From Nocardioides marmorisolisilvae (GTDB taxonomy: Bacteria; Actinomycetota; Actinomycetes; Propionibacteriales; Nocardioidaceae), in NCBI RefSeq assembly GCF_003725775.1, contig NZ_RJSG01000006.1:124001-188000 (forward strand): a DNA stretch of 64,000 bases, written 5' to 3'. Shown here piece after piece: positions 45,594 to 62,240 of this stretch; position 1 is the first letter of the stretch, and each line of letters opens with the position of its first letter. The position numbers and the translations under genes are program-made. The notes below the pieces were generated by a model that was given only the letters and a program-made list of their open reading frames with translations, did not search any database and had not been told where the DNA came from.

Positions 45594-45610
45594 TGACAGT
45601 AAATCTGTCA
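45594..45610. promoter_or_regulatory. TGACAG-N5-CTGTCA operator, site A (racemase)
   Basis: TGACAGTAAATCTGTCA: perfect 6-bp arms around TAAAT, ending 11 bp before the ATG at 45622. The same motif occurs at 51306 and 60198. Confidence 0.75.
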
Positions 45611-45621
45611 TGATCCCCAGC

Positions 45622-46779
45622 ATGGCTATCGAACTGGGACAGGGCACCGGCCCGCTCAAGGGCATCAAGGTCGTCGAGATCGCGGGCATCGGCCCGAGCC
45701 CGCACGCCTGCACGCTGCTCGCCGACCTCGGCGCTGACGTCATCCGGGTCGAGCGCCCGGGCGGCCAGATGCTCACCGGCGGCAGCCACGACTTCCTGAA
45801 CCGCGGCCGGCCCAGCGTCGCGCTGAACCTCAAGGACCCGGCCGCGGTCGAGACCGTGCTCCAGCTCGTCGAGGACGCGGACGTGCTCGTCGAGGGCATG
45901 CGCCCCGGAGTCACCGAGCGGATGGGCCTCGGCCCGGACGACTGCTTCGCGCGCAACCCGCGCCTCGTCTACGGCCGGATGACTGGCTGGGGCCAGACCG
46001 GTGAGTGGTCGCAGGCCGCCGGTCACGACATGAACTACATCGCGATCACCGGGACGTTGTTCGGTCTCGGCCAGACCAAGGACCGTCCCCAGTTCCCGAC
46101 CAATCTCGTCGGCGACTTCGGCGGCGGCTCGATGTACCTCGTCGTCGGCATCCTCGCGGCGCTGCTCGAGGCCCGGGTCAGCGGCCAGGGCCAGGTCGTC
46201 GACGCCGCCATCGTCGACGGCACCGCGCACCTCAACGCGATGACCGCTGCCTTCCTCGAGGGCGGCAACTACCGGGAGGAGCGCGCCGCGAACCTGCTGG
46301 ACGGCGGTGCGCCGTACTACGACATCTACGAGACCGCCGACGGCAAGCACATGTCGGTCGGCTCGCTGGAACCGCAGTTCTACGAGATCCTGATCGACCT
46401 GCTCGGGGTGCGGGACACGGCTCCCGACCGGTTCGACTTCGCCAAGGTCGACGAGCTCCGCGCGGTGTTCACGGCGAAGTTCGCCGAGAAGACCCAGGCC
46501 GAGTGGTGCGCCGTCTTCGACGGCACCGACGCCTGCGTGGCGCCGATCATCCCGCTCACCGAGGCGTTCGAGCACCCGCACATGAAGAGCCGCGAGGTCT
46601 TCGTGAAGCACCACGGCCGGATGCAGCCGGCACCGGCGCCGCGGTTCTCCCGGACCGGCGCGACCCTGGGCCTGCCGCCGGCCGGAGGGGCCGGGGAGCA
46701 CACCCGCGAGGCGCTGGCTGCCTGGGGCATCGACAACGTCGACGCGCTCATCGGTTCGGGCGCCGCCGTCCAGATCTAG
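45622..46779 (+). CDS. Alpha-methylacyl-CoA racemase-like family III CoA transferase
   Basis: 385 aa. CaiB/BaiF fold: LKGIKVVEIAGIGPSPHACTLLADLGADVI-type beginning, then the racemase pair His135 (AAGHDMNYIAITG) and Asp165 (LVGDFGGGSMYLV), spaced 30 residues as in the M. tuberculosis racemase MCR. It would epimerise 2-methylacyl-CoA esters so that beta-oxidation can handle sterol side chains or branched acids. An in-frame ATG at 45610 is an alternative start overlapping the operator. Confidence 0.88.
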   Translation: MAIELGQGTGPLKGIKVVEIAGIGPSPHACTLLADLGADVIRVERPGGQMLTGGSHDFLNRGRPSVALNLKDPAAVETVLQLVEDADVLVEGMRPGVTERMGLGPDDCFARNPRLVYGRMTGWGQTGEWSQAAGHDMNYIAITGTLFGLGQTKDRPQFPTNLVGDFGGGSMYLVVGILAALLEARVSGQGQVVDAAIVDGTAHLNAMTAAFLEGGNYREERAANLLDGGAPYYDIYETADGKHMSVGSLEPQFYEILIDLLGVRDTAPDRFDFAKVDELRAVFTAKFAEKTQAEWCAVFDGTDACVAPIIPLTEAFEHPHMKSREVFVKHHGRMQPAPAPRFSRTGATLGLPPAGGAGEHTREALAAWGIDNVDALIGSGAAVQI

Positions 46780-46790
46780 CCCGGACCGGC

Positions 46791-47951
46791 TCAGGCCAGC
46801 GCGATCACCGCGTCGCGGACGAATTCGGGATCGGTCAGCCGGTCGCCGTACAGGTCGCGGAGCTGGCCGACCCGGTAGCGCACGGTCTGCGGGTGCACGA
46901 ACAACGCCGCGGCGACCTCGTCGCGCCGGCCCTGGTGCAGCAACCATGCCCGCAGGGTCTGCTCGAGCTTCTCCTGGGCAGCTGGCCGGACGGCGTCCAA
47001 CGGTGCGAGGACGCGCGTCCGGAGGTCCGCCCGGGCGTCCGGCGCCGCCGTGACCACGAGGTCCGCGAGGTGCTGGTCGGTGTCGCCGAACAGGCTCAGC
47101 CGGTAGGCGTGCAGGGCGCGCAGGTACGACGTACGGACGGACGTCCACGGAACCGCCGGCCCGACGATCGCCTCGGTGTCCGCCGCGGCGCGCAGGACCG
47201 CGGCGCGGGCCCGGTCGGTGGGCATCGGGACCAGCACGACGTTCCAACCCGAGTCGAGCTCGTCCACCTCGTCGGCCAGATACAGGCTGCGGCTGTCGAG
47301 CTGGGCACGCGCGCCCCGGATCCGTGCCTCGGGGGCGACGAGGGCCGCCAGCCGCGTCGGCGGATTCCAGTCGGCCCGCTCGGCTGCGGAGACCAGCTCC
47401 TCCTCCGGCGCGCCGTCGAGGAGCCGGACCGTGAGCCGGTCGAGCCGCCGCTGACGGAGCCGGCCCGAGGTCGCGAGCTCGTCGGCATGACCGCTGACGC
47501 TGGCGTCGGAGAGCTCGTCGATGTAGGCGAAGACCAGCTCGGCGAGTCGGGCCAGCATCGGGGCGGACAGTCCGGCCGAGACCGCCGAGGTGCTCATCTC
47601 GCGCCAGGCGACCCGGGCCCCGACCCGGTAGGCCTGGGCGAGCGCGTCCATGGTCCGACCGCTGCGAGCCTCGCCACGGCCGAGTGCGTAGGCCGCCTCG
47701 AGCACCGCCTCGATCTGCTCGCCGGCGTCGATGCCCTCCCGGCGGCTGGCCAGGTCGAGGAATCCGTCCAGGGCGGTCTTCACCGCGATCTCGATGTTGC
47801 GGCCCATCTGCCCGCGGAACGGGTCCCGGTAGCTGGGCACCTCGCTGATCACCGCGGCGATCACCTGCTCGGCGACCTGGGCGATGTCGGTGCGCATCAC
47901 CGCGGCGACATCGGGAGGTAGCCGTAACGCCATCTGAGAGCGGTCGCTCAT
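46791..47951 (-). CDS. PucR/CdaR-family transcriptional regulator
   Basis: 386 aa. A helical N-terminal region, a central GGDEF-like domain and the C-terminal PucR helix-turn-helix: LEQTLRAWLLHQGRRDEVAAALFVHPQTVRYRVGQL in parts, near 325-365. The ATG giving MSDRSQMALRLPPD is chosen over one eight codons upstream. It is divergent from the ferredoxin-reductase/desaturase pair by 89 bp and is the obvious candidate to regulate it. Confidence 0.87.
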   Translation of the reverse strand: MSDRSQMALRLPPDVAAVMRTDIAQVAEQVIAAVISEVPSYRDPFRGQMGRNIEIAVKTALDGFLDLASRREGIDAGEQIEAVLEAAYALGRGEARSGRTMDALAQAYRVGARVAWREMSTSAVSAGLSAPMLARLAELVFAYIDELSDASVSGHADELATSGRLRQRRLDRLTVRLLDGAPEEELVSAAERADWNPPTRLAALVAPEARIRGARAQLDSRSLYLADEVDELDSGWNVVLVPMPTDRARAAVLRAAADTEAIVGPAVPWTSVRTSYLRALHAYRLSLFGDTDQHLADLVVTAAPDARADLRTRVLAPLDAVRPAAQEKLEQTLRAWLLHQGRRDEVAAALFVHPQTVRYRVGQLRDLYGDRLTDPEFVRDAVIALA

Positions 47952-48040
47952 GACTTCTTTATACGCTACGAACAAAAGAGAGCGCTAGATTCACTTGGCC
48001 AGGTCATGAGTTTGATCCGTGCGGACGTCATGCTTGCACC

Positions 48041-49183
48041 ATGACCGACACACTCCTGCGCCCGAGCGAGGACCGCGCCACCCTGCGCGGTCGCCTGGTG
48101 CAGCTCGCCGAGGCGGCCACCACGCCGTTGATGCCGGCCGACTACCTCGACCTGATCGCTCCGCTGCGCCGCGGCACCGACCTGCGCGGTCGGATCGTCT
48201 CGGTGCACCCGGAGACCCGGGACGCGGCGACCATCGTGCTGCGGCCCGGCGTCGACTGGGCCGGTCACGTGCCGGGCCAGTACCTGCGGATCGGTATCGA
48301 CGTGGACGGTGTCCGCGAGTGGCGGGCGTACTCGCTCACCCACGGACCGCGGGCCGACGGCTGCATCTCGATCACGGTCAAGGCCGTGCCGGACGGCAAG
48401 GTGTCGAACCACTTGGTGCACGCCGCGAAGCCCGGGACGCTGGTGCACCTGGAGCAGGCGGCCGGGGACTTCGTGCTCCCGTCCTCGCGGGGTGAGCTCG
48501 TCGAGACCAAGCTCCTCTTCGTCACGGCCGGGTCGGGGGTCACGCCGGTCATCGGGATGCTGCGCAACCTCTTCCCGGTGACGGACTCCGGCGTCGTGGA
48601 CCTGCCGCGCAGCGCCGACCTCGACATCGTGGTGGTGCACGTCGCGCCGAGCGAGCCGGACTCGATCTTCCTCGACAACCTGCGCGAGCTCGATGCCCAC
48701 GGCGCCGTCCGCCTGGTCCCCCGGTACGACGACGTGCACGGCGTCCTCGACGTCGCGGAGCTCTCCTCGCTGGTGCCCGACCTCGCCGAGCGCACCACCT
48801 ACGCGTGCGGGCCGAGCGGTCTGCTGGACGCGCTCACCGCGCACCACGAGGCGGCCGGCCTACCGCTGTTCACCGAGCAGTTCCGCGCCGGGTTCGTCGA
48901 GGCGGGTGAGGGCGGAACCCTGACACTGGCCGACGGCCGCACCGTCGAGGCGGACGGTGCGACGCCGCTGCTCGACGTGGCCGAGGCCGCCGGCGCGCTG
49001 ATGCCGAGCGGCTGCCGGATGGGCGTCTGCTTCGGCTGCGTCGTCCCCCTGAAGGAAGGCGCCGTGCGCGACCTGCGCAACGGCGCGATCACCACCGTCG
49101 ACCCGATCAGCTCCGCCGCCGGCGGCGTACCGATCCAGACCTGCATCAGCGCCGCAGCCGGCGCCTGCCACATCGAGCGATAG
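48041..49183 (+). CDS. Ferredoxin reductase-type electron transfer protein for the desaturase
   Basis: 380 aa. An FNR-like FAD/NAD(P)H module (PGQYLRIGIDVDGV and RAYSLTH near 90-110; TAGSGVTPVIGML near 165) with a C-terminal plant-type 2Fe-2S domain binding iron through Cys325, Cys330, Cys333 and Cys368. It matches the Rv3230c-type partner of the stearoyl-CoA desaturase DesA3. It passes electrons from NAD(P)H to the desaturase gene 8 nt downstream. Confidence 0.92.
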   Translation: MTDTLLRPSEDRATLRGRLVQLAEAATTPLMPADYLDLIAPLRRGTDLRGRIVSVHPETRDAATIVLRPGVDWAGHVPGQYLRIGIDVDGVREWRAYSLTHGPRADGCISITVKAVPDGKVSNHLVHAAKPGTLVHLEQAAGDFVLPSSRGELVETKLLFVTAGSGVTPVIGMLRNLFPVTDSGVVDLPRSADLDIVVVHVAPSEPDSIFLDNLRELDAHGAVRLVPRYDDVHGVLDVAELSSLVPDLAERTTYACGPSGLLDALTAHHEAAGLPLFTEQFRAGFVEAGEGGTLTLADGRTVEADGATPLLDVAEAAGALMPSGCRMGVCFGCVVPLKEGAVRDLRNGAITTVDPISSAAGGVPIQTCISAAAGACHIER

Positions 49184-49191
49184 GCCACGAG

Positions 49192-50427
49192 ATGACCACC
49201 ATCCAGAAGAAGAACGTCGACCCGACCGCGCACCTGACGCCCGAGGACATCGAGCAGCTCGGCATCGAGCTCGACGCCATCCGCCAGTCCGTGCTCGACG
49301 TGCGCGGCGAGGCCGACGCGAAGTACATCCGCAACGTCATCAAGACCCAGCGCGGTCTCGAGGCGGGCAGCCGCGCGGTGCTGCTGTTCTCGATCTTCCC
49401 GCCGGCCTGGCTGCTCGGCACCGCCGGCCTGAGCGTCGCGAAGATCCTGGAGAACATGGAGATCGGGCACAACATCCTGCACGGCCAGTGGGACTGGATG
49501 CGCGACCCGAAGATCCACTCCACCACCTGGGAGTGGGACATGGCGACGCCCGCCAAGCAGTGGCAGCACTCGCACAACGAGCTGCACCACACCTACACGA
49601 ACGTCGTCGGCAAGGACAACGACCTCGGCTACGGGATCATGCGGGTCGACGAGGAGCAGCGCTGGCACCCGTTCTTCCTGGCCCAGCCGTTCTGGAACTT
49701 CATCAACGCCTGCTTCTTCGAGTACGGCATCGCTGCCTACGACCTGGAGCTCGGCAAGAACCTGAAGATCAAGAAGGAGAACCGCAGCGAGGAGTTCCAG
49801 GCCAACGTCAAGGGCGTGCTGGCCAAGATCCGCAAGCAGGCGACCAAGGACTACCTGGTGCACCCGGCGCTCTCGCTGCCGACCGGCTCGTTCCTGCCGA
49901 CCCTGGCCGCGAACTTCACCGCCAACGTGGTCCGCAACCTGTGGAGCCACTCGGTGATCATGTGCGGTCACTTCCCCGAGGGGGTCGAGACCTTCGAGAA
50001 GAAGTCGATCGACGGTGAGACCCGCGGCGAGTGGTACCTGCGCCAGATGCTCGGCTCGGCCAACATCTCCGGCGGCCCGGCGATCCACATGATGACCGGC
50101 AACCTGAGCTTCCAGATCGAGCACCACCTGTTCCCCGACCTGAACAGCAACCGGTACGCCGAGATCGCTCCGCAGGTGCAGGCGCTCTTCGAGAAGTACG
50201 GCCTGAACTACCACACGGCCCCGTTCCCCCAGCAGGTGTACTCGGCGTGGCACAAGATCGTGCGGCTCTCGCTGCCGAACGGCTGGCTCGACGAGACCAA
50301 CGCGAAGAACCTGCCGACCCAGCTGGTCAAGCTCTACAAGCTGACCACCGGCGGTCCGAAGGTGCGCCGGATGATCGAGCTGGCCGACCGTCGCGCTGCG
50401 AACGACAAGAAGCTCGCCGCCGCCTGA
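49192..50427 (+). CDS. Membrane fatty-acid (acyl-CoA) desaturase, DesA3-like
   Basis: 411 aa. Three His boxes of the di-iron desaturases: HNILH from His93, HSHNELHH (His126-133), and IEHHLFPDL (His311, His312), with hydrophobic segments between. It introduces a cis double bond, probably Delta9, into stearoyl-CoA. It is co-transcribed with its reductase, as in mycobacteria. A divergent PucR regulator is the likely control. Confidence 0.93.
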   Translation: MTTIQKKNVDPTAHLTPEDIEQLGIELDAIRQSVLDVRGEADAKYIRNVIKTQRGLEAGSRAVLLFSIFPPAWLLGTAGLSVAKILENMEIGHNILHGQWDWMRDPKIHSTTWEWDMATPAKQWQHSHNELHHTYTNVVGKDNDLGYGIMRVDEEQRWHPFFLAQPFWNFINACFFEYGIAAYDLELGKNLKIKKENRSEEFQANVKGVLAKIRKQATKDYLVHPALSLPTGSFLPTLAANFTANVVRNLWSHSVIMCGHFPEGVETFEKKSIDGETRGEWYLRQMLGSANISGGPAIHMMTGNLSFQIEHHLFPDLNSNRYAEIAPQVQALFEKYGLNYHTAPFPQQVYSAWHKIVRLSLPNGWLDETNAKNLPTQLVKLYKLTTGGPKVRRMIELADRRAANDKKLAAA

Positions 50428-50434
50428 CCAGGCG

Positions 50435-51214
50435 TCAGTCGGTCACGTCGTAGTGCACGTGGTCGCGGTGCTCGAGGATCGCGCGCTCCGCAGCGTTGTG
50501 CGCGTTCTGCGGGTCGGGCACGACGTAGTGCCGCCAGCCGTCGCGTCCCCGTGAGGCCGTCCAGATCCGGTCGTCGAAGATCACCGTCTCGATGGCCAGC
50601 CGGGACGCGTTCGCGACGAGGTACTGCGCGAGCTGCCAGCCGCGGTTCTTGTTCGCCGCGGTGATCGGGCGGAAGAACGTGTCGACGGCGCGGCCCTCGT
50701 AGTGGGCCGACCCCGGCATGTGCCCGGTGTGCACGCCGCCCGGGGCGTAGCCGCCGAGCGGGAGGTCCCCGAACCGCTTCAGCACGTCCTGCCGGACCCG
50801 CTCGGCCCGGGCTGTCAGGCCACGGCTGTCGAGGGTGTCCGGCTCCGACGTACCGGCTCCGCCGCTGCGGCAGGAGAGTGCCGCGTGCAGCCGGCCGGTG
50901 ACGGCCTTCGCGACCAGGGCCGCGTCGTCGGGGGCGAGACCGGGTGCGGCCCGGTGCACGAGGGTCTTCGCCGCGGGGCCGCTCGGGCGCACCTGCGGCG
51001 CCAGCGCGGTGGTCACGGCCTCGGCCTGGTCGCTGCTGAGGTCGACCGTCCGTCCGCCCGCGGTGACCGTGCACGCCGGCCCGCTGAGCATCCGGGTGAA
51101 GATCACCACCGAGCCGGCGAGCAGCAGCAGAACGGCGGTGCCAACGACGATCCGACCGCGCCGGGTCAGGCTTCCACGAGTGCTCACGAGTCCCAGTCTT
51201 CCCAGCAGGCGCAC
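50435..51214 (-). CDS. Membrane-anchored protein with M15-like domain
   Basis: 259 aa. One N-terminal anchor (GRIVVGTAVLLLLAGSVVIF), a linker with a Cys pair, and a C-terminal domain with HMPGSAHYEGRAVDTFF and HRDHVHYDVTD, the SxHxxGxAxD plus HxH pattern of M15-type peptidases. It is paralogous to the domain in the secreted protein at 12.1-13.3 kb. The GTG at 51214 has GAGG upstream; one at 51187 is an alternative. Confidence 0.68.
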   Translation of the reverse strand: MRLLGRLGLVSTRGSLTRRGRIVVGTAVLLLLAGSVVIFTRMLSGPACTVTAGGRTVDLSSDQAEAVTTALAPQVRPSGPAAKTLVHRAAPGLAPDDAALVAKAVTGRLHAALSCRSGGAGTSEPDTLDSRGLTARAERVRQDVLKRFGDLPLGGYAPGGVHTGHMPGSAHYEGRAVDTFFRPITAANKNRGWQLAQYLVANASRLAIETVIFDDRIWTASRGRDGWRHYVVPDPQNAHNAAERAILEHRDHVHYDVTD

Positions 51215-51305
51215 CGTGTACCTCGTCCGCAGGTACCGACCTGCGGGCCCTGGGGAGGAGCCGCTCCGTCCGTGACGTGGACCACAGGCACCCGGCCATT
51301 GACCT

Positions 51306-51322
51306 TGACAGTATTACTGTCA
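51306..51322. promoter_or_regulatory. TGACAG-N5-CTGTCA operator, site B (fadAB)
   Basis: TGACAGTATTACTGTCA is a perfect palindrome with 8-bp arms around one T. It contains the -10 TACTGT. Confidence 0.8.
51315..51320 (+). promoter_or_regulatory. -10 element TACTGT for fadA-fadB
   Basis: TACTGT within site B; the predicted leader to the fadA ATG is about 55 nt. Confidence 0.5.
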
Positions 51323-51381
51323 CAATGGCTGAGGCGCTCCTTCCCTGCGCGCCTTCACTTCGACATTGAGTTGGGACGGTC

Positions 51382-52596
51382 ATGGCACAACCCGAAGCTT
51401 TTGTGTACGACGCCATCCGCACGCCGCGCGGCAAGGGCAAGAAGGACGGATCGCTGCACGCGACGAAGCCCGTCGACCTGGTCGTCGGTCTGATCGACGC
51501 GATCCAGGAGCGCAACCCGAACCTGGACCCGAACCGCGTCGACGACGTCGTCCTCGGTGTCGTCTCCCCGATCGGTGACCAGGGCGGCGACATCGCCAAG
51601 ACCGCCGCGCTCGCCGCGGGTCTGCCCGAGACCGTCGCCGGCGTCCAGCTCAACCGCTTCTGCGCCTCCGGCCTGGAGGCCGTCAACCAGGCCGCCGGCC
51701 GGGTCCGCTCCGGCTTCGAGGACCTGATCCTCGCCGGTGGTGTCGAGTCGATGTCCCGCGTCGCGATGGGCTCCGACGGTGGCGCCTGGGCGGCCGACCC
51801 GCACACTGCGTTCCAGACCTCCTTCGTCCCCCAGGGCATCGGCGCCGACCTGATCGCCACCCTCGAGGGCTGGAGCCGCGAGGACGTCGACACCTACGCC
51901 TCGCAGTCGCAGGACCGGGCCGCCAAGGCCCAGGCCAACGGCTACTTCGACAAGTCCGTCGTGCCGGTCAAGGACCTCAACGGCCTGACCGTGCTCGGCC
52001 GGGACGAGTTCATCAAGCCGGGCACCACGCCGGAGAAGCTCGCCGGACTGAAGCCGTCCTTCCAGATGCACGGTGACCTCGGCTTCGACGACGTCGCGCT
52101 GCAGAAGTACCACTGGGTGGAGAAGATCAACCACGTCCACCACGCCGGCAACAGCTCCGGCATCGTCGACGGTGCGGCCCTGGTCGCGATCGGCACCGAG
52201 CAGGTCGGCAAGGACCTCGGTCTGGCCCCGCGGGCCCGGATCATCTCCGCCGCCGTCTCCGGCGCCGACCCGACGATCATGCTCACCGGTCCGGCTCCGG
52301 CTGCCCGCAAGGCGCTGGCCAAGGCCGGTCTGGAGGTCGAGGACATCGACCTGTTCGAGATCAACGAGGCGTTCGCCGCGGTCGCGATGCGGTTCATGCG
52401 CGACATGGGCATCTCCGACGAGATCACCAACGTCAACGGCGGCGCGATCGCCATGGGTCACCCGCTCGGCGCGACCGGCGCGATGATCCTCGGCACCCTG
52501 ATCGACGAGCTCGAGCGTCGCGACCAGAAGCGCGGCCTGGCCACGCTCTGCGTCGGCGGCGGCATGGGCATCGCCACCATCGTCGAGCTCGTCTGA
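51382..52596 (+). CDS. fadA: Acetyl-CoA acyltransferase (3-ketoacyl-CoA thiolase)
   Basis: 404 aa. Thiolase active-site residues: Cys94 in [13 protein letters not shown], His360 in [16 protein letters not shown] and Cys390 in LCVGGGMG. It cleaves 3-ketoacyl-CoA to acetyl-CoA plus a shortened acyl-CoA, the last step of beta-oxidation. It lies 31 nt upstream of fadB, forming the trifunctional pair. Transcription should be controlled from the palindrome upstream. Confidence 0.95.
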
Positions 52597-52627
52597 GCTC
52601 CCCACTCCGAGTCTTCAAGGAATACGC

Positions 52628-54811
52628 ATGTCTGAATCCGCTGTGAAGTACGAGAAGGACGCCGACGGCATCGTCGTCCTGACGCTGGACGACCCGACCG
52701 CCAGCGCGAACACCATGAACGAGCTGTACGGCCGTTCGATGGACGAGGCCGTCACCCGGCTCGAGGCCGAGAAGGACTCGATCACCGGTGTGGTGATCAC
52801 CTCCGCGAAGAAGACCTTCTTCGCCGGCGGCAACCTGAGCGACCTGATCAAGGTCGGTCCGGACCAGGCCGACGAGATCTTCGAGAAGGGCCAGGCCGTC
52901 AAGGCCCAGCTGCGCCGCATCGAGCTCCTCGGCGTTCCGACCGTCGCCGCGATCAACGGCGCCGCCCTCGGCGGTGGCCTCGAGATCGCGCTGGCGTTCA
53001 ACCACCGGATCGCGGCGGACACCCGCCTCGAGATCGGTCTGCCGGAGGCCACCCTCGGCCTGCTGCCCGGCGGTGGCGGTGTCACCCGCACCGTGCGTCT
53101 GCTCGGCATCCAGTCCGCGCTGCTCGACGTCCTCCTCCAGGGCACCCGGTACCAGCCGGCCGCCGCGCTGGCCAAGGGCCTGATCCACGAGATCGTCCCG
53201 GCCGACCAGCTCGTCGACGCCGCGAAGAAGTGGGTCCTGGACAACAAGGACAACGACGAGGCCAAGAGCCAGCCGTGGGACCGCCCGGGTTACAAGATGC
53301 CCGGTGGCACCCCGTCGAGCCCCTCGCTGGCCGGCATGCTGCCTGCCTTCCCGGCCACCCTGCGCAAGCAGCTCAAGGGCGTCCGGATGCCGGCTCCCGA
53401 GGCGATCATGGCGGCGGCCGTCGAGGGCGCCCAGGTCGACTTCGACAACGCGGCCACCATCGAGTCGCGCTACTTCGCCTCGCTCGTCGTCGGTCAGACC
53501 GCGAAGAACATGATCCAGGCGTTCTTCTTCGACCTGCAGCAGATCAACTCGGGCGCGCTGCGTCCGCAGGGCGTGGAGAAGTTCCAGCCGACCAAGGTGA
53601 TCGTGCTGGGCGCCGGGATGATGGGCGCGGGCATCGCCTACGTCTGCGCCCGGGCCGGCCTGGAGGTCGTGCTCAAGGACGTCTCGCTCGAGGCGGCCGA
53701 GAAGGGCAAGTCCTACACGGCCAAGCTGAACGAGAAGGCCGTGTCCCGCGGCAAGCTCACCCAGGAGAAGTCGGACGAGCTGCTCGGCCGGATCCTGGCG
53801 ACCGACAACCCGGCCGACGCCAAGGGCTGCGACCTGGTCATCGAGGCCGTCTTCGAGGACCCTGCGCTGAAGAACAAGGTCTTCGCCGAGATCGCCGAGC
53901 ACATCAACAGCGACGCGCTGCTGTGCTCGAACACCTCGACGCTGCCGATCACCGAGCTGGCCGCCGGTGTCGACCGTCCGGCCGACTTCATCGGTCTGCA
54001 CTTCTTCTCGCCGGTCGACAAGATGCCGCTGGTGGAGATCATCCGCGGTGCGGAGACCACCGACGAGACGACCGCCAAGGCGATCGACATCGTCCAGCTC
54101 ATCAAGAAGACGCCGATCGTCGTCAGCGACAGCCGCGGCTTCTACACCTCGCGCGTCATCGGCACCCAGATCAACGAGGGCATCTCGATGCTCGCCGAGG
54201 GCGTGCACCCGATGAGCATCGACCGGGCGACCACCATGGCCGGCTACCCGGTCGGCCCGCTGCAGATCAGCGACGAGCTGAACATGGAACTGATGTACAA
54301 GATCCGCAAGGCGTCGATCGAGGCGACCGAGCGCGACGGCGGCACCTGGGTGGCGCACCCGTCGGAGGTCGTCATCGACAAGATGATCGAGCTGGGTCGC
54401 TCCAGCAAGCTCGTCGGCAAGGGCTTCTACGAGTACGACGAGAACGGCAACCGGACCGGCCTGTGGCCCGGGCTGGCCGAGGCGTTCCCGGTCGCTGCCG
54501 AGCAGATCCCGCTCGAGGACATCCAGGACCGCCAGCTGGTCGTCGAGGCCATCGAGACCGTCAAGTGCTTCGACGAGGGTGTGCTGCACTCCGCCGCCGA
54601 GGCCAACATCGGCTCGATCTTCGGCATCGGCTTCCCGGCGGTCAAGGGTGGCGCGATCCAGTACATCAACGGCTTCGAGGGCGAGGCGGGCCGTGGCCCG
54701 GCCGGCTTCGTCGCCCGGGCCCGCGAGCTCGCCGCGAAGTACGGCGAGCGCTTCGAGCCGCCGACCAGCCTGGTCGCGGTCGCGGAGAGCGGCGGCACCT
54801 TCCCCGCCTGA
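52628..54811 (+). CDS. fadB: Enoyl-CoA hydratase / 3-hydroxyacyl-CoA dehydrogenase
   Basis: 727 aa. An N-terminal crotonase domain with [10 protein letters not shown] near 60 and [19 protein letters not shown] near 111-130, and a dehydrogenase domain starting with the NAD motif [13 protein letters not shown] near 327, then [15 protein letters not shown] near 458 with the catalytic His, followed by two C-terminal HCDH domains. It hydrates trans-2-enoyl-CoA and oxidises the product. Paired with fadA. Confidence 0.95.
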
Positions 54812-54823
54812 TCGACACCTGAG

Positions 54824-54858
54824 CCGAAGCCCCCGACTGGTCTGGTCGGGGGCTTCGG
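54824..54858 (+). terminator. Strong hairpin terminator after fadB
   Basis: CCGAAGCCCCCGAC and GTCGGGGGCTTCGG are perfect 14-bp arms around a 7-nt loop, followed by TCATTTCGGG with only a short T run. Confidence 0.85.
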
Positions 54859-54910
54859 TCATTTCGGGCATTCTTCGCCGCGGTCAGGACGAGTCTTGGA
54901 GAATGCCTGG

Positions 54911-55636
54911 GTGAGCAGCTCAGGGGGGAACGAGATCGAGCGCATCCACATCCGCGGGCTGTGGGTGCGCTTCGGCTCGGTGGAGGCCGTGCGCGGGATC
55001 GACATCTCGGCGTACGCCGGACGCGCGACCGCCCTCCTCGGGCGCAACGGGGCCGGCAAGTCGACCACGATGCGGGTGCTCGCCGGCGTGATCCCGCCGA
55101 CCGAGGGGGAGGTGGTCGTCGACGGTGTCGACGTCCGCCACGACCCGCTGACCGTGAAGCGCTCCACCGGCTTCTGCCCGGACGTCGGCGGGCTGGTCCC
55201 GCGGGCGACGCCGTGGGAGCACCTCCAGCTGGCCGCCCGGTTGCGCCGGATGCAGGGCTGGGAGCTGCGCGCCCAGGACCTGCTCGAACGCTTCGACCTC
55301 GGCGCCGCGGCGCACCGGGTCACCGGCGGGTTCAGCCACGGCATGGGTCGTCGGCTCTCGGTGGTGCTGGCTGCCTTCCACGAGCCGTCGGTGCTGCTGC
55401 TCGACGAGCCGTTCGATGGCGTCGACCCGCTCGGGGTCGAGGCCACCCAGCGGGTGATCTCGGACGCGAAGGACCGCGGTGCCGCCGTGCTCGTCTCCAC
55501 CCACCTGCGCGACCTGGCGATGGAGGCCTGCGAGGACGCCCTGGTCCTGCGCGGCGGCTCGGCGGTCGCGGCACTCGGGTCCGAGGACCTGGTCGGGGAG
55601 GACGGCGCTCGTGCCTACCGAGCACTCCTGGACTGA
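54911..55636 (+). CDS. ABC transporter ATP-binding protein
   Basis: 241 aa from a GTG with GGAG 9 nt upstream. Walker A GRNGAGKST (Lys50), GGFSHGMGRRLSVVLAAF in place of the canonical LSGGQ signature near 138, Walker B VLLLDEPFDGVDP and switch His in LVSTHLRDLAM. The altered signature is typical of ABC-2 exporters of the CcmA-like group. Its end overlaps the permease start by 26 nt. Confidence 0.88.
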   Translation: MSSSGGNEIERIHIRGLWVRFGSVEAVRGIDISAYAGRATALLGRNGAGKSTTMRVLAGVIPPTEGEVVVDGVDVRHDPLTVKRSTGFCPDVGGLVPRATPWEHLQLAARLRRMQGWELRAQDLLERFDLGAAAHRVTGGFSHGMGRRLSVVLAAFHEPSVLLLDEPFDGVDPLGVEATQRVISDAKDRGAAVLVSTHLRDLAMEACEDALVLRGGSAVAALGSEDLVGEDGARAYRALLD

Positions 55637-57143
55637 GCTCCGCCGCGGCGCCGAGGACCTGCGCGCCCTGCTGGCGTTCCGTCGCAGCGGCCTGACCCCG
55701 GTCTCGCGCAAGCGGCTGCGGATCGGCGGCGGCCTCGTCATCACGCTCACCGTCGCGGCGATTGCGCTGCCGGCGTACCTGAAGGAGCCGCTGGGGCGCA
55801 ACGTCGGCGACCTGGTCGCGATCATGCCGACCTTCTACCTCGGCTTCCTCGTGCTCTCCGTGCTCGCGGCGGTCAGCTCCGGCGGTGGGCGCGAGCTCGT
55901 CCCGCGCGACCAGGCCGTCGCCTACCCGGTCTCGACGGTCACCGAGCACCTCGGCGCCCTGCTGCTCGCCCCGCTCAACGTCGCCTGGCTGATCCAGGCC
56001 TGGGCGCTGCTCGGCAGCACGACCTACATCTTCGGACCGCACTACCTCCCCGCCCAGGTGACGCCGGTCCTGCTCTGGATCGTGCTCTCCACCGCGGTGG
56101 GTCAGGTCGTCGGGTGGGCCTTCGAGGGCATCCGTCGCGGCCCGCACGGGACCTGGGTCGCGCGGGGCATCACGACCGCTTTCGGGGCCGGCGTCCTCGC
56201 CCTGGTCCTGACCCACACGCTGACCAACGTGCTCGACCACAGCCCGACGGTGCGCATCTACCTGGCTGCCAGCTACGGCGGTGGTGCCGACTGGGGACGG
56301 TGGAGTGCGTACGTCGCGGTTCTACTGGCGATGATCGCCGCCGCCGTGCTGATCGGGCTGCTGCCGGCGCGGTGGGCCCTGCAGCGCCCGCAGCGGGAGG
56401 AGCTGCGACTGGAGTCCGGCCACCACGAACCTCCGCCGAACCCGCGCTCGGACCTGGTCGCGATGGTCCGGCTGGACCGGGCCTCGGTCTGGCGCTCGGT
56501 TCCGCTGCGCCGCGGCCTGCTCGTGCTCGGGATGATGCCCGGGGTGGTGGCCCTGGGCGGTGCGCTGACCTGGGACCTCGTCACGATCCTGCCGGGCTTG
56601 GTGGCTTCTGGCGGCGCGCTGCTGTTCGGGGTCAACGCCTGGTGCCTGGACGGTCGCGGCGCGCTCTGGCGCGACAGCCTGCCGACCTCGCCACGGATCT
56701 CCTACCTGGCCAAGGTGGTCGTGCTCTTCGAGGTGCTGCTCGTGACGGGCCTGATCACGATCGCACTGGCGGCGTTCCGCGCGGGTCGCCCGACGGCGGC
56801 CGAGCTGGTCTCGGTGCTCGCGGCCCTGGTGGTGGTGGCCGCCCAGGTGGTGGCGACCTCGATGCGCTGGTCGGTGACCCGGCCCTACGCCTCGGACATG
56901 CGCAGCGCCCGGGCGACGCCCGCACCGCCGGTGGTGATGGCCGGCTACTCGGCCCGTCTGGCCGTGAAGACCACGGTCGTCGGGCTGGTGTTCTCGGCGA
57001 CCGCGATCGCGAGCACCTGGCTGGTGCCGTTCCTGGTCGCGGTGCCGATGCTGCTCTGGTCGGCGTACCGCCTGGCGCGCACCGAGTCGGCCTGGGCCGA
57101 ACCTCTGGTGCGCGCCAGGGTGGTCGCCGTGGTCGCGAGCTAG
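55611..57143 (+). CDS. ABC transporter permease (large, uncharacterised)
   Basis: 510 aa from a GTG inside the ATPase gene. About ten to twelve hydrophobic segments; the first reads IGGGLVITLTVAAIALPAYL. AFEGIRRGPHGTWVARGITT in the middle may be a coupling region. No substrate-specific motif. It forms a two-gene exporter with the ATPase. Confidence 0.8.
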   Translation: MPTEHSWTELRRGAEDLRALLAFRRSGLTPVSRKRLRIGGGLVITLTVAAIALPAYLKEPLGRNVGDLVAIMPTFYLGFLVLSVLAAVSSGGGRELVPRDQAVAYPVSTVTEHLGALLLAPLNVAWLIQAWALLGSTTYIFGPHYLPAQVTPVLLWIVLSTAVGQVVGWAFEGIRRGPHGTWVARGITTAFGAGVLALVLTHTLTNVLDHSPTVRIYLAASYGGGADWGRWSAYVAVLLAMIAAAVLIGLLPARWALQRPQREELRLESGHHEPPPNPRSDLVAMVRLDRASVWRSVPLRRGLLVLGMMPGVVALGGALTWDLVTILPGLVASGGALLFGVNAWCLDGRGALWRDSLPTSPRISYLAKVVVLFEVLLVTGLITIALAAFRAGRPTAAELVSVLAALVVVAAQVVATSMRWSVTRPYASDMRSARATPAPPVVMAGYSARLAVKTTVVGLVFSATAIASTWLVPFLVAVPMLLWSAYRLARTESAWAEPLVRARVVAVVAS

Positions 57144-57155
57144 CGCCCCGGGGCG
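57144..57155. other. 12-bp GC palindrome between convergent stops
   Basis: CGCCCCGGGGCG sits exactly between the two convergent stop codons. It may serve as a minimal terminator, but with no loop or T run this is weak. Confidence 0.35.
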
Positions 57156-57156
57156 A

Positions 57157-57921
57157 CTACTTCTTCGAGGACTTCGCGCAGGCCGAGGCCTTCTTGTCGC
57201 TGGCCGCGTTCAGCGCGGTCGCGTCGGAGGACTGGGTCTGGTTGGCCACGATCAGCTTCTTGATGTCGGAGATCGGCATCGTCCGCTTGAAGCACGCCTC
57301 GAGCTTGGCGGCGTCGATCGTCTTGTCGCTCTTGGCGACCTGCTGGGCCTGGACCTTCTGGTAGTCGACGCAGCCGAGGAACGCGTCCGCGTAGTTGCCG
57401 GAGGTCTTCGCGTCGAGGTCGGCGCCCGCGGTGTTGAACTCACCGGTGTCGGTGATCACCTGGGAGGAGAGCAGCCGCTGCACCCCGGCAGTCTTGACGA
57501 ACTTGCTCGCGAAGCACGTGACGTCGCTGTCGTCCAGCACGCCGGTGGTCGACTTCTCGAACGCCGTGGTGACGGTCTTGTCGTAGGCCTTGAGGGCGTC
57601 CTTCTCGTTGATGCAGTCGAGCAGCGCCTTCGAGAACGCGTTCGACGTCTTCTTGTCGACGTTCGCGCCGTTGGTGTTGTAGCTGTCGTCAGCGGCGACC
57701 GCCTTGGCGGACTTCAGCTTCTTCTCGCCCACGTCCCCGACGAACTTGTCCGCGACGCAGGTCGCGTCCTTCTTGGACAACAGCGCGTCGTCCGGCTTGG
57801 AGATCGCCGTGGCGATCGTCTTGGAGATCTTCTGCTCCGTCTTGGTGAGCTTCACGCCGCCGCAGGCGGTCGCGAGGAGCAGGACAAGGACACCGAGGGC
57901 AGCCGGAAGGGCCTTCTTCAT
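57157..57921 (-). CDS. Lipoprotein with internally duplicated domain
   Basis: 254 aa. Lipobox LLATAC near residue 20. Two tandem repeats of about 65-70 residues: CVADKFVGDVGEKKLKSAK ... ALLDCI and CFASKFVKTAGVQRLLSSQ ... AFLGCV, each with a Cys pair, and a third partial copy (CFKRTMPISDIKKLIV) near the end. Lys-rich and Ala-rich; no known family. GGAGAAACC precedes the ATG. Confidence 0.72.
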   Translation of the reverse strand: MKKALPAALGVLVLLLATACGGVKLTKTEQKISKTIATAISKPDDALLSKKDATCVADKFVGDVGEKKLKSAKAVAADDSYNTNGANVDKKTSNAFSKALLDCINEKDALKAYDKTVTTAFEKSTTGVLDDSDVTCFASKFVKTAGVQRLLSSQVITDTGEFNTAGADLDAKTSGNYADAFLGCVDYQKVQAQQVAKSDKTIDAAKLEACFKRTMPISDIKKLIVANQTQSSDATALNAASDKKASACAKSSKK

Positions 57922-58135
57922 GGTTTCTCCGAATGTCGAACGAGGCGCAGAGCGCGCGCGGAATCGGGTCCACCCTGCCCTATCGACCTGTGAAGGAGCC
58001 AAACGCGTCTCAGCCCGAGGTCGGGACCCTCGGATACGTAACCTCGCGTCAGGTTTCTCGTTGAGCCGAGTGATCGTGCCAAAGGATCCGGGGGGAGCCT
58101 TTGGGATTCATGGCGTCGTTCTGGGAGACCGAAGC

Positions 58136-58399
58136 ATGAAAAAGTACGGGTATGTCTTGCTTGTGGCTATTGTCGCGCTGCTCGTGAGCGTGGGCTTGGC
58201 GACCTCCGCCGATGCGAAGGCTGATGCGAAGTCCCGGTCGACCACGACCCAGCAGGTCGGCGCGAGCCAGCCGACCCCTGCCGGCCCGGACCGAATCGTG
58301 CTGCTCAGCGGCCTGGTGCTGCTGCTCGCGGGTGCCACCGCCGTGACCGTCGCGCGACGCAACGCGGAGGAAGTCGAGCTTCCTGGTCAGACCGCCTAG
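58136..58399 (+). CDS. Small membrane protein with signal peptide and C-terminal helix
   Basis: 87 aa. Signal sequence (YGYVLLVAIVALLVSVGLATSADA), a Ser/Thr-rich spacer and a second helix (IVLLSGLVLLLAGATAVTVARR), ending in an acidic tail. GGGAG lies 10 nt before the ATG. It ends 9 nt before the DUF4012 gene and may be functionally linked with it. Confidence 0.65.
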   Translation: MKKYGYVLLVAIVALLVSVGLATSADAKADAKSRSTTTQQVGASQPTPAGPDRIVLLSGLVLLLAGATAVTVARRNAEEVELPGQTA

Positions 58400-58402
58400 T
58401 CT
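58397..58402 (+). promoter_or_regulatory. -10 element TAGTCT for the DUF4012 gene
   Basis: TAGTCT overlaps the stop of the small membrane protein; 6 nt to the GTG. Confidence 0.45.
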
Positions 58403-58408
58403 TCCCCC

Positions 58409-60175
58409 GTGGTGATCTCGCCTGGGTTCAAGCTGTCGCGCCGTCACGTGGTTGTGGGGCTGAGCCTGATCGGGTTCTTCATCGTCGGGATCTTCGCCTG
58501 GCAGGCCTGGACGGCATCGCGAGCGCTCCTCGACGCCCGCACCCACGCCGAGACCGTGCAGAAGCGGATCAAGGCGGGCGACTTCGACGGAGCCAACCGA
58601 GCGCTGGCCGAGCTGCGCTCGAACACCAGCAAGGCGCACGACTCGACCGACGGCCTGCTCTGGGACCTCGGCAAGCACATCCCGTACTTCGGTCGGAACG
58701 TGGGCGCGGTGCAGACCGTCTCCGAGGTGCTGGACACCGCCACCCAGGTGAACGCGCCGATCGCGCTCGAGCTCAGCCGGGCTGTCGACGCCGGGGTGTT
58801 CCGACCGGACAAGGGCCAGCTCAACCTGACCGAGATCCAGAAGCTGACGCCGAAGGTGAATCGCGCCGCCGCCTCGATCGAGAAGGCCAGCCGCGACCTC
58901 GACGGGATCCGCAGCGGCAAGCTGGTCTTCCCGTTCAACGACCTCGTCGGTGACCTCAAGGACGAGGTCGAACGCGCCCGGTCCGCCTCGACCGCGACCG
59001 CCACGGCCTTCGACCTGATGCCGCAGATGCTCGGCGCCGACCAGCCGCGCGACTACCTGCTCATCATCCAGAACCCCGCCGAGCTGCGCGCCACCGGAGG
59101 TCTGCCCGGATCGCTGGCGGTCCTGCACGCGGACAAGGGCCGGATCACCATGGGGTGGCAGGGCTCCGCCGGGGACGTGAACCCGTTCAGCGGGCCCGTG
59201 GTGACGCTTCCCAAGGACACCCTCCAGCAGTACGGGCCGACGATGGCCACCGACTTCCGCGACATCAACTTCACCCCGGACTTCCCCCAGGCCGCCCAGA
59301 TCGCCAAGGCGATGCTGGCCCAGAAGCTGAAGATCCACGTCGACGGCGTGGTCTCGGTCGACCCGCTCGCCCTGGCCGGTCTGATGCAGGGCACCGGGCC
59401 GATCAACGCCGGCCACGGCGTGGTGCTGACCGCGAGCAACGTGGTGCCGGTGCTGCTGAACCAGACCTACCAGTCGATCCAGGACGCCGCCGCTCAGGAC
59501 ACCTTCTTCGAGAACGTCGCCCGGAAGATCTTCGACGCGGTCACCACCGGCCAGGGCAACCAGCAGCTCGCCATCACCGGGCTCGCCAACGCGACCAACC
59601 AGCACCGGGTGCAGCTGTGGTCGGACCGCGATGACGAGGAGTCCCGCCTGGCCGGGACCGCGGTCGGCGGTGCTCTCGGCGGGAAGTCGGGGAGGACGCC
59701 CCAGGTCGGGATGTACATCAACGACTCGACCGCCGGGAAGATGGACTACTACCTGCAGTACCGCAGCTCGGTCTCCGCGGTCGACTGCCGCCGGCACGGT
59801 GCCCAGGACCTGCGGGCCTCGGTCTCCTTCGTCTCCACGATGCCGAAGGACTACCAGCGGCTCTCCGAGTTCATCACCGGGACCGGTGCCTACGCGCCCA
59901 AGGGGACGATCGCGTTCAACCTGCGCTTCTACGCCCCGTACGGCGGGGAGATCGTCGGCCTGACCGTGAACGGCAAGCCGAACTCGGCGACCGCGGACCT
60001 GCACCACGGCCGCCAGGTGGCGTTCCTCCCGGTCGCGCTCAAGCCCCAGGAGCAGGTCATCGTGACCGCCGACATCCGCACCGCCCCCGGCCAGGACGGC
60101 GACGGCGTCTTCAGCTTCACCCCCGGGATGATCCCGGCGCCGAACGGGGTCACGTTCACCTCGGCCTGTGACTGA
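58409..60175 (+). CDS. DUF4012 domain protein
   Basis: 588 aa. One N-terminal anchor (HVVVGLSLIGFFIVGIFAWQAW), a coiled-coil region (about 35-170), and the DUF4012 domain with LLIIQNPAELRATGGLPGSLAVL near 210-235 and DFRDINFTPDFPQAAQIAKAM near 280. These proteins occur beside exopolysaccharide genes and are predicted to be extracellular with a LytR-like role, but no function is proven. Two adjacent GTG codons can start it. Confidence 0.85.
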   Translation: MVISPGFKLSRRHVVVGLSLIGFFIVGIFAWQAWTASRALLDARTHAETVQKRIKAGDFDGANRALAELRSNTSKAHDSTDGLLWDLGKHIPYFGRNVGAVQTVSEVLDTATQVNAPIALELSRAVDAGVFRPDKGQLNLTEIQKLTPKVNRAAASIEKASRDLDGIRSGKLVFPFNDLVGDLKDEVERARSASTATATAFDLMPQMLGADQPRDYLLIIQNPAELRATGGLPGSLAVLHADKGRITMGWQGSAGDVNPFSGPVVTLPKDTLQQYGPTMATDFRDINFTPDFPQAAQIAKAMLAQKLKIHVDGVVSVDPLALAGLMQGTGPINAGHGVVLTASNVVPVLLNQTYQSIQDAAAQDTFFENVARKIFDAVTTGQGNQQLAITGLANATNQHRVQLWSDRDDEESRLAGTAVGGALGGKSGRTPQVGMYINDSTAGKMDYYLQYRSSVSAVDCRRHGAQDLRASVSFVSTMPKDYQRLSEFITGTGAYAPKGTIAFNLRFYAPYGGEIVGLTVNGKPNSATADLHHGRQVAFLPVALKPQEQVIVTADIRTAPGQDGDGVFSFTPGMIPAPNGVTFTSACD

Positions 60176-60197
60176 CCTCGCTGTTCCGACGGAACCG

Positions 60198-60214
60198 TGA
60201 CAGCGCTACTGTCA
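60198..60214. promoter_or_regulatory. TGACAG-N5-CTGTCA operator, site C (ACAD operon)
   Basis: TGACAGCGCTACTGTCA: perfect 6-bp arms around CGCTA. It contains the -10 TACTGT and ends 5 bp before the ATG. Confidence 0.78.
60207..60212 (+). promoter_or_regulatory. -10 element TACTGT for the ACAD operon
   Basis: TACTGT inside site C, 7 nt before the ATG; leaderless transcript predicted. Confidence 0.55.
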
Positions 60215-60219
60215 TCGTC

Positions 60220-61467
60220 ATGGATTTCTCTCCCTCGCCGCGCGCTGCCGAGCTGACCGCGCTGGTCTCCGCATTCGTCCGTGACGAGATCGAGCCGCGG
60301 ATGGCCGAGTACCACCACGACGTCTCCGCCGCGCGGGAGTCGGGCACCTGGGCGGAGTCGCCGATCATGGCCGAGCTCCGCACCAAGGCGCGGGCCCAGG
60401 GGCTCTGGAACCTCTTCCTGCCGGTCGGCCACGACCAGCCGTACGCCGAGCAGTTCGGCACCCACGGCGGGGCCGGCCTGAGCAACACCGACTACGCGCC
60501 GCTGGCCGAGCTGATGGGGCGGGCGACCTTCCTGGCGCCGTACGTCTTCAACTGCAACGCACCCGACACCGGCAACATGGAGGTGCTGCTCAAGTACGGC
60601 ACCGACGAGCAGAAGAAGCAGTGGCTCGAGCCGTTGCTCGACGGGCAGATCCGCTCGGCGTTCGGGATGACCGAGCCGGGCGTCGCGTCCTCCGACGCCA
60701 CCAACATGGCGGCCACCGCGGTCGTCGACGGCGACGAGGTCGTGGTCAACGGTCGCAAGTGGTTCTCGACCGGCGTCGGACACCCGGACTGCAAGATCAT
60801 GATCTTCATGGGGCTCTCGGATCCCGACGCCGACCGCCACCACCGGCACACCATGGTGCTGGTGCCGCTGGACAGCCCGGGCGTGAAGATCGAGCGGATG
60901 CTCTCGACGATGAACGTGTACGACGAGCCTGTCGGCCACGGCGAGGTCTCGTTCGACAACGTCCGGGTGCCGAAGGACAACATCCTGCTCGGCGAGGGAC
61001 GCGCGTTCGAGATCGCCCAGGGCCGTCTCGGTCCGGGCCGCATCCACCACTGCATGCGCCTGATCGGCCAGGCCGAGGTCGCCCTCGAGCTCGCCATCAA
61101 GCGTGGCACCTCGCGGACCGCGTTCGGCAAGCCGCTGGTCAAGCTCGGCGGCAACCAGGAGCGCATCGCGGACGCCCGGATCGCCATCGACCAGGCCCGG
61201 CTGCTGGTCCTGAACGCGGCCTGGAAGCTCGACGTCGGCGGCCCGCTGAACGCGCTGTCCGAGGTCAGCCAGATCAAGGTGATCGTGCCGAACGTCGCTC
61301 AGCAGGTCATCGACATGTCCATCCAGGTGCACGGGGGTGGCGGACTCGCCCAGGACTCGATGCTCTCGGCGATGTGGACCAACGCGCGCGCCCTGCGGCT
61401 GGCCGACGGACCTGACGAGGTGCACCGCGGCGTGGTCGCCCGGCTGGAGATCGGCAAGCACCTCTGA
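60220..61467 (+). CDS. Acyl-CoA dehydrogenase of the ACAD10/11 type
   Basis: 415 aa. ACAD fold with AFGMTEPGVASSDATNM near 147 and GRKWFSTGVGHPDC. The phrase QGRLGPGRIHHCMRLIGQAE near 267-286 and ALRLADGPDEVH near 393 match the C-terminal half of human ACAD10/ACAD11. Asp396 stands where ordinary ACADs have catalytic Glu (YEGT). In ACAD11 this module acts after a kinase module phosphorylates 4-hydroxyacyl-CoA. The kinase-like protein is encoded two genes downstream. Confidence 0.9.
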   Translation: MDFSPSPRAAELTALVSAFVRDEIEPRMAEYHHDVSAARESGTWAESPIMAELRTKARAQGLWNLFLPVGHDQPYAEQFGTHGGAGLSNTDYAPLAELMGRATFLAPYVFNCNAPDTGNMEVLLKYGTDEQKKQWLEPLLDGQIRSAFGMTEPGVASSDATNMAATAVVDGDEVVVNGRKWFSTGVGHPDCKIMIFMGLSDPDADRHHRHTMVLVPLDSPGVKIERMLSTMNVYDEPVGHGEVSFDNVRVPKDNILLGEGRAFEIAQGRLGPGRIHHCMRLIGQAEVALELAIKRGTSRTAFGKPLVKLGGNQERIADARIAIDQARLLVLNAAWKLDVGGPLNALSEVSQIKVIVPNVAQQVIDMSIQVHGGGGLAQDSMLSAMWTNARALRLADGPDEVHRGVVARLEIGKHL

Positions 61468-62240
61468 TGCGTGCGCTCGTGACGGGCGGGGCTTCCGGGC
61501 TGGGTGCTGCGCTGTGCCGGGCCCTGGTCGCCCGCGGTGACGAGGTGCTGAGCGCCGACGTGAACCCGCCCGCCGAGCCGCTCGACGGGGTCGAGTACCT
61601 GACCCTCGACGTCCGCTCCGACGACGACTGGGCCGCGGCGCACGCGCGGGTCCTGGAGAAGTGGGGCGAGCTCGACCTGCTCTTCAACAACGCCGGCGTC
61701 GCCGGTGGCGGCCGGGTCGACGTGGCCGGGATGGACGAGTGGGAGTGGATCACCCAGATCAACCTGTTCGGCGTCGTCCGCGGTACTCGTGCCTTCGTCC
61801 CGCTGATGAAGGCCCAGGGCAGCGGCACCATCGTGAACACCGCCTCGCTCGCGGGTCTCGTGCACCCGGCCGGGATGGGCTCCTACAACGCGGTGAAGGC
61901 CGCGGTGGTCGCGTTCTCGGAGACCATGGGGCACGAGCTCGCCGAGTTCGGGATCAAGGTCAGCGTGGTCTGCCCGTCGTACTTCCGCACGCCGCTCATC
62001 GACAACATGCAGGGGACCGACGTCGCGATCGGCTCGGTGATCGGGGCGCTCGTCGCGAACTCACCGACGAGCGCCGACGACATCGCCGCGGCGGTGCTCG
62101 CCGGGATCGAGGCCGGCGACGAGGTGATCCTTCCCGACGAGGCAGCGCGCGCGGCGTACGGGCTCAAGGTCGCGGACCGCGACGGCTACAACCAGGTGAT
62201 GCGGCACCAAGCCGCCCGGCTGAACGCGATGGGGTCATGA
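61467..62240 (+). CDS. Short-chain dehydrogenase/reductase
   Basis: 257 aa. Cofactor motif TGGASGLGAAL (residues 6-16), NNAG near 78 and catalytic Ser/Tyr/Lys in SLAGLVHPAGMGSYNAVK (Tyr and Lys separated by three). The acidic residue after strand two (SADVN) suggests NAD(H). It overlaps the ACAD stop by 1 nt and the kinase start by 4 nt. It may oxidise a hydroxyacyl or alcohol intermediate in the same pathway. Confidence 0.9.
   Translation: MRALVTGGASGLGAALCRALVARGDEVLSADVNPPAEPLDGVEYLTLDVRSDDDWAAAHARVLEKWGELDLLFNNAGVAGGGRVDVAGMDEWEWITQINLFGVVRGTRAFVPLMKAQGSGTIVNTASLAGLVHPAGMGSYNAVKAAVVAFSETMGHELAEFGIKVSVVCPSYFRTPLIDNMQGTDVAIGSVIGALVANSPTSADDIAAAVLAGIEAGDEVILPDEAARAAYGLKVADRDGYNQVMRHQAARLNAMGS

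Follow-up and report, generated by a model that had tools for sequence, protein, structure and literature searches.

A probable palindromic operator before acyl-CoA catabolism genes and a candidate MerR-family repressor in Nocardioidaceae

Background

In the well-known cases, fatty-acid breakdown is regulated mostly by proteins of the TetR or GntR families. Members of the TetR family often recognise short palindromes of odd length and regulate acyl-CoA genes. The GlnR/TnrA branch of MerR repressors serves nitrogen control, and to our knowledge its members do not have the C-terminal domain found in the Nocardioides MerR protein described below.

LiuR, of the MerR family, is described as regulating the degradation of branched-chain amino acids in Proteobacteria (PMC5343134, in the available part of the article). 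The Nocardioidaceae have been studied for steroid degradation, and work there names KR76_27330, a MerR gene that is induced and has an 'Acin3' site (PMC7807495, available part). Among the matches listed, neither TGACAG-N5-CTGTCA nor a MerR protein regulating beta-oxidation in Actinobacteria was found in the titles and abstract openings of the open-licence literature, which is weak evidence of absence.

Here we describe three copies of this palindrome in a Nocardioides genome, show that relatives have them ahead of orthologous genes, and point to a gene that probably encodes the protein binding them.

Operator sites in the window and its genome

The window (the whole stretch of 64,000 nucleotides analysed, G000:C2:124001-188000 of its own genome) contains exactly three copies of TGACAG-N5-CTGTCA. 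They stand at 45594, 51306 and 60198, letter for letter as in the original prediction, which also held that no other pair of arms with 5-nt spacing exists in the window. This is correct, and copies with one or two mismatches were not found in the window either. When three mismatches are tolerated, 10 further matches appear, giving 13 against a shuffle mean of 23, so the informative copies in the window are the exact ones only. All window features given below lie on the plus strand.

Operator site A, TGACAGTAAATCTGTCA (45594..45610), is an exact match, and relatives have orthologous sites ahead of the same cluster of genes. It overlaps a possible ATG (45610) by its final base; another ATG follows at 45622. 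The gene behind it (45610..46779) encodes an AMACR-like CoA-transferase family III protein (Pfam CoA_transf_3, PF02515, E 1.4e-79), a family common to AMACR and CoA-transferases that does not tell the two apart here. No NCBIfam model scored above its cut-off on this protein.

Operator site B, TGACAGTATTACTGTCA (51306..51322), is an exact match ahead of fadA, an acetyl-CoA C-acetyltransferase (thiolase) gene at 51382..52596 (NCBIfam PRK08242, 690 bits, cut-off 514). It is followed by a fadB/fadJ-type enoyl-CoA hydratase/3-hydroxyacyl-CoA dehydrogenase gene at 52628..54811 (NCBIfam, Pfam).

Operator site C, TGACAGCGCTACTGTCA (60198..60214), is likewise exact and lies 5 nt upstream of a start codon; the same site precedes the orthologue in two relatives (L122, L124). 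The first gene of operon C encodes an acyl-CoA dehydrogenase (60220..61467; NCBIfam, Pfam) and is followed by genes for a short-chain dehydrogenase (SDR; 61467..62240; NCBIfam, Pfam) and an APH-type kinase-like protein (62237..63316; Pfam APH, E 1.3e-44). A histidine phosphatase superfamily gene (63319..63969; Pfam His_Phos_1, E 1.8e-16) is possibly the last gene of the operon, judging by spacing. The expectation that each site stands ahead of a lipid-CoA unit therefore holds: CoA-transferase family III at A, thiolase with FadB/FadJ-type at B, and acyl-CoA dehydrogenase-SDR-APH-type kinase at C.

Between sites A and B, the segment 46791-50427 holds a gene for a PucR-type regulator (HTH_30, Pfam) facing two genes, which were labelled by reading only as ferredoxin reductase-like and fatty acid desaturase-like. 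The motif scan of the window found no operator copies within this segment.

The 3.83 Mb genome (3,828,516 bases, 6 contigs) has four exact copies in all; the reversed control pattern does not occur. The fourth, at G000:C4:159113, is 5 nt upstream of an F420-dependent Rv3520c subfamily gene (NCBIfam F420_Rv3520c, 434 bits, cut-off 335), so the set of sites exceeds the three first noticed. Tolerating one mismatch raises the count to 7, where the reversed control gives 1; only three have exactly one mismatch (control 1), and one of these lies in the promoter region of a MerR gene. The regulon in this genome has at least five loci, not three.

A separate one-mismatch site at G000:C4:1326815 (L131, 1501-1517) lies 23 nt upstream of an enoyl-CoA hydratase-like gene, possibly an extra member of the regulon. 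At the one-mismatch site at G000:C4:795139 the target is not obvious.

Conservation and targets in relatives

Exact sites occur in 22 of 24 genomes of the genus (this one included) at 1-7 per genome, with the reversed control in 1/24. In the family sample they occur in 157 of 197 genomes, with the control in 6/197. A sample of the class separates the family from its surroundings. Exact sites are present in 19 of its 23 family members (control 0/23) but in 17 of the 223 genomes outside the family, which equals the control (17/223) and is background. The exact motif therefore belongs to the Nocardioidaceae.

The targets were surveyed in 95 distinct site contexts from among the matches listed, with genes called by a simple codon-bias caller. 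This set leaves out the copies of the window sites (L001-L003), the TetR loci (L056-L085) and repeated contexts. Spacer bases, counted on both strands of the 95 sites, refine the motif to TGACAG-YRNYR-CTGTCA. With a margin of 20 nt, no site (0/95) lies inside a called gene. In 87 of the 95 a gene from a labelled cluster starts no more than 200 bp beyond the site, at a median distance of 38 nt, and these are mostly lipid-CoA genes. The cluster labels were chosen after the clusters were seen; those of the AMACR-like, fadA, LLM, dehydrogenase and MpaB clusters come from Pfam/NCBIfam on one member each and the others from reading. The targets are an MpaB-type oxygenase (19), fadA (16), an LLM oxidoreductase (11), AMACR-like genes (11), AMACR-like genes with a divergent alpha/beta hydrolase (11), an acyl-CoA synthetase (4), an acyl-CoA dehydrogenase with a divergent MerR gene (3), an acyl-CoA dehydrogenase of the type found at site C (3), and smaller groups (9). 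Of the remaining contexts, three are before another gene and five before none.

The original prediction proposed a scan of the whole genome and of relatives for the 17-mer, and conservation before orthologous genes as its touchstone. Both came out in its favour, with sites before lipid-CoA genes and outside called genes across most of the family. There is a real family-wide regulon that is larger than three sites.

The eight exact sites without a recognised lipid target are L009, L023, L024, L037, L044, L101, L105 and L114. Two of them have the same glycosyltransferase-like gene downstream.

A MerR-family gene that carries the site

The clue to the regulator came from three genomes in which an acyl-CoA dehydrogenase gene and a MerR-family gene are divergent, with a site between them. 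The genome studied here has one strong homologue of that MerR protein, at C4:175391, with 72% identity over 95 aa; the second-best match has 35% identity over 80 aa. A homologue in Nocardioides marmoriginsengisoli (L202) is 87% identical to the protein of this genome. The gene (G000:C4:175364-176098, plus strand, 244 aa) is on a contig other than that of the window and is divergent from an acyl-CoA dehydrogenase gene. The shared promoter has three variants of the site: TTACAGCAATACTGTCA, with one mismatch, and two copies with two mismatches, one of them overlapping TTACAGCAATACTGTCA. The claim that a single regulator encoded outside the window controls all three units gains support from this gene and from the conservation of the sites.

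In this promoter (L126, 1344-1374) the two overlapping operator copies are offset by 14 bp, a layout that recurs in many relatives. Such overlapping copies may allow cooperative binding.

Most homologues of the gene have a site of their own. In the family set, 70 MerR-homologue loci were collected, 68 with a MerR call, and 62 of the 68 have a site with at most two mismatches within 350 bp upstream; by this measure it is absent at L148, L169, L171, L179, L180 and L184. In the named set (the best 80 of 372 relatives) 78 of 80 homologues have a site with at most two mismatches within 400 bp upstream, 47 of them exact, 19 with one mismatch and 12 with two, and it is absent at L214 and L277. The two sets have species in common and are therefore not independent. 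Control windows elsewhere in the same loci reach 2.3% with up to two mismatches and 1.7% with up to one (n = 4000).

The divergent partner varies. It may be the acyl-CoA dehydrogenase, an LLM oxidoreductase (L186, L194, L198, L199), a fadA thiolase or others, and the site is retained where the MerR gene is divergent from other genes (L156, L157, L191, L192, L200, L201). That the site is kept while the neighbour changes matches the prediction of autoregulation. In a more distant MerR group (about 38-44% identical) the divergent neighbour is a fadA-type thiolase gene, often with the variant TGACAC-N5-CTGTCA, which ties the fadA of the window to such regulators. The MerR-dehydrogenase pairs of Actinomadura and relatives (L270-L281) have TAACAC-N5-CTGTCA in 11 of 12 cases.

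Motif and MerR gene also co-occur. With homologues counted at E <=1e-30, the 197 family genomes divide into 130 with both, 27 with the motif only, 15 with the MerR gene only and 25 with neither (Fisher p 5e-8, kinship ignored). A profile search at E <=1e-15 found the protein in 24 of the 27 motif-only genomes, which brings the total to 154 of 157 motif-bearing genomes; by this search it is absent from G015, G065 and G089, which are assemblies of 200-330 contigs. Eleven of the 25 genomes with neither were retested by profile search and none (0/11) had it. A MerR homologue is nevertheless present in 15 of the 40 genomes without an exact site, so either the exact pattern misses variants or some regulators differ. 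Of the loci added by the profile search, 23/26 have an upstream site and 3/26 do not (L305 and L329 being one place).

At L305/L329 (G066:C1:4284384-4285104) the match to MerR runs over two frames, which may reflect a frameshift or sequencing error, and was searched in pieces. In several genomes of genus g6 (L306-L326) the match skips about residues 106-147, as though a small subdomain were absent.

Promoter architecture and the sign of control

The fadA promoter of the window, as read from its sequence, has a putative -35 box TTGACC (51299..51304) and a putative -10 box CACAAT (51321..51326) that overlaps the operator end. These are 16 bp apart with the palindrome between them. Among fadA promoters a TTG-type box stands just upstream of the palindrome in 14/16 and CAAT directly after it in 11/16. 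AMACR-like promoters have the TTG-type box in 6/22 and CAAT in 11/22, and such boxes were not found at the LLM, MpaB, FadD and operon C sites. As read, this promoter layout is clear at fadA alone and partial at AMACR. The original prediction had taken TACTGT, within the right arm of sites B and C, as the -10. A TACTGT-like string does occur in the arms, but the conserved boxes at fadA are the two named above, and TACTGT stands as a tentative -10 only.

Of 16 fadA promoters, 13 have a CRP-like box ahead of the operator (11 of them at 33-36 bp), as do 2 of the 62 other targets counted. Its conservation before fadA suggests added activation. In the window the box read at 51271..51286, CGTGACGTGGACCACA, is 35 bp upstream of operator B; it differs in its first base from the stricter pattern and is outside the 13.

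From the computed sites, the way they are conserved ahead of orthologous genes and their link with the MerR gene, we infer binding and repression. TGACAG-YRNYR-CTGTCA is very probably the operator of the MerR-family regulator encoded outside the window, which would repress a small acyl-CoA catabolism regulon together with its own gene. A MerR dimer would occupy the 17-bp palindrome, within or beside the core promoter. At fadA the bound protein would sit between the -35 and -10 boxes and block RNA polymerase. A spacer of normal length (16 bp) is what leads to this expectation, unlike the case of classical MerR activators. The sites that abut the start codon, at AMACR-like, LLM and operon C genes, also suit repression. 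A lipid-derived ligand, acting through the C-terminal domain, would release the protein from the operator, and MerR would repress its own gene.

Since many MerR proteins activate transcription, control here could be of the opposite sign. An activator or dual regulator that binds the same sites and bends the promoter like classical MerR proteins is unlikely, though it is the strongest of the alternatives. In classical MerR promoters too the operator is placed between the boxes, as at fadA, but the spacers of classical activators are 19-20 bp (PMC5045206, available part), a trait that the fadA boxes, 16 bp apart as read, do not share.

Less probable still is a TetR-family repressor encoded elsewhere that binds the sites, with the MerR gene merely one of its targets. 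The original prediction leaned to the TetR type and suggested looking for an autoregulated TetR gene with the site. This genome has 67 TetR_N matches, and the general habits of the family, odd-length palindromes and control of acyl-CoA genes, would suit the role. However, none of 30 TetR loci in the genome (two of the 30 being one fused gene) has an upstream site with up to two mismatches. Sites with at most one mismatch keep a distance of about 10.7 kb or more from all 67 matches, by coordinates compared by eye, which was the only check for the other 37, and no TetR neighbour was recognised among the matches listed beside the site-flanking genes. TetR was therefore rejected as the regulator, and the MerR gene fits instead.

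That the motif is a promoter element or a chance palindrome has next to no probability, for although its arms include TTGACA-like and TACTGT-like strings, this reading fails against the class sample, unless the family has another bias, and against the absence of sites from called genes.

Domains and candidate ligand of the MerR protein

The protein begins with a MerR winged-helix DNA-binding domain (PF13411, 74.1 bits, cut-off 21.6), which was matched in all 44 homologues (E <=10). Its C-terminal part has no Pfam match at cut-off. An AF2 model from 44 sequences (mean pLDDT 80.6, pTM 0.50) has the winged helix and a C-terminal part; a fold from the single sequence was poorer (mean pLDDT 68.2).

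Foldseek searches of the PDB with the model gave no match at E <=0.001. After MerR structures came the regulatory domain of adenylyl cyclase Rv1264, a weak match (E 0.018-0.034, TMq 0.36-0.40; for 2ev1_A, TMq 0.40, TMt 0.49, 190 columns, E 0.03). Oleic acid is present in an Rv1264 structure (PMC12505454, available part). The link between the C-terminal part and Rv1264N has no support from sequence, the profile score of 16.3 being equal to that of the reversed control (16.3). PF16701 (Ad_Cy_reg) is absent among the Pfam matches listed for the protein and its homologues, and Rv1264N is absent among the 50 VIA-align matches listed, which fall mainly over residues 12-94. An Rv1264N-like lipid sensor in the modelled C-terminal domain is thus a lead only. 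Two adenylyl cyclase-like proteins of this genome with PF16701 matches (L282, L283) have an N-terminal part that weakly resembles the MerR helix-turn-helix (profile alignment, probability 22%).

The most likely ligand would be a fatty acid or acyl-CoA; the original prediction had suggested acyl-CoA. It is conceivable, but doubtful, that the MerR protein serves throughout the Nocardioidaceae as the chief repressor of fatty-acid, branched-chain and 4-hydroxyacyl-CoA catabolism, with a DNA-linked C-terminal domain related to the lipid-binding fold of Rv1264N. The same sensor fold would then report fatty acids to cAMP synthesis and also directly to beta-oxidation promoters, and fadA would combine both through its CRP-like box and MerR operator.

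Comparison with known systems

In Nocardioidaceae a MerR-type protein seems to take the place of the TetR and GntR regulators of fatty-acid breakdown. The regulon links little-known genes to acyl-CoA metabolism, namely the F420-dependent oxidoreductase, the MpaB-type oxygenase and the acyl-CoA dehydrogenase-kinase operon. The operator and the gene are defined precisely enough to be put to a simple binding assay.

In operon C (60220-63316) an acyl-CoA dehydrogenase stands together with an APH-type kinase, the same pairing as in LvaC/LvaA and ACAD10/11; the likeness is one of gene pairing alone. Those proteins are described as acting on 4-hydroxyacyl-CoA (PMC11342911, available part).

At sequence level the 17-bp palindrome is a dyad-symmetric operator in the promoter region, a trait of the MerR family. 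The metal regulators CadR, CueR and MerR are the best structural and sequence matches to the N-terminal domain, yet the targets here are lipid genes, and the best score among the metal-responsive MerR models of NCBIfam is 32.7 bits against a cut-off of 150.85. KstR, KstR2, SRTF1 and further TetR regulators of Nocardioides simplex also control acyl-CoA or steroid catabolism and belong to the same family of bacteria, but they are TetR-family proteins, and the motifs named for them in the available part of PMC7807495 are other than TGACAG-N5-CTGTCA. LiuR resembles the Nocardioides regulator by description, as a MerR-family protein in control of acyl-CoA catabolism reconstructed by comparative genomics (PMC5343134, available part), but it is found in another phylum, the Proteobacteria.
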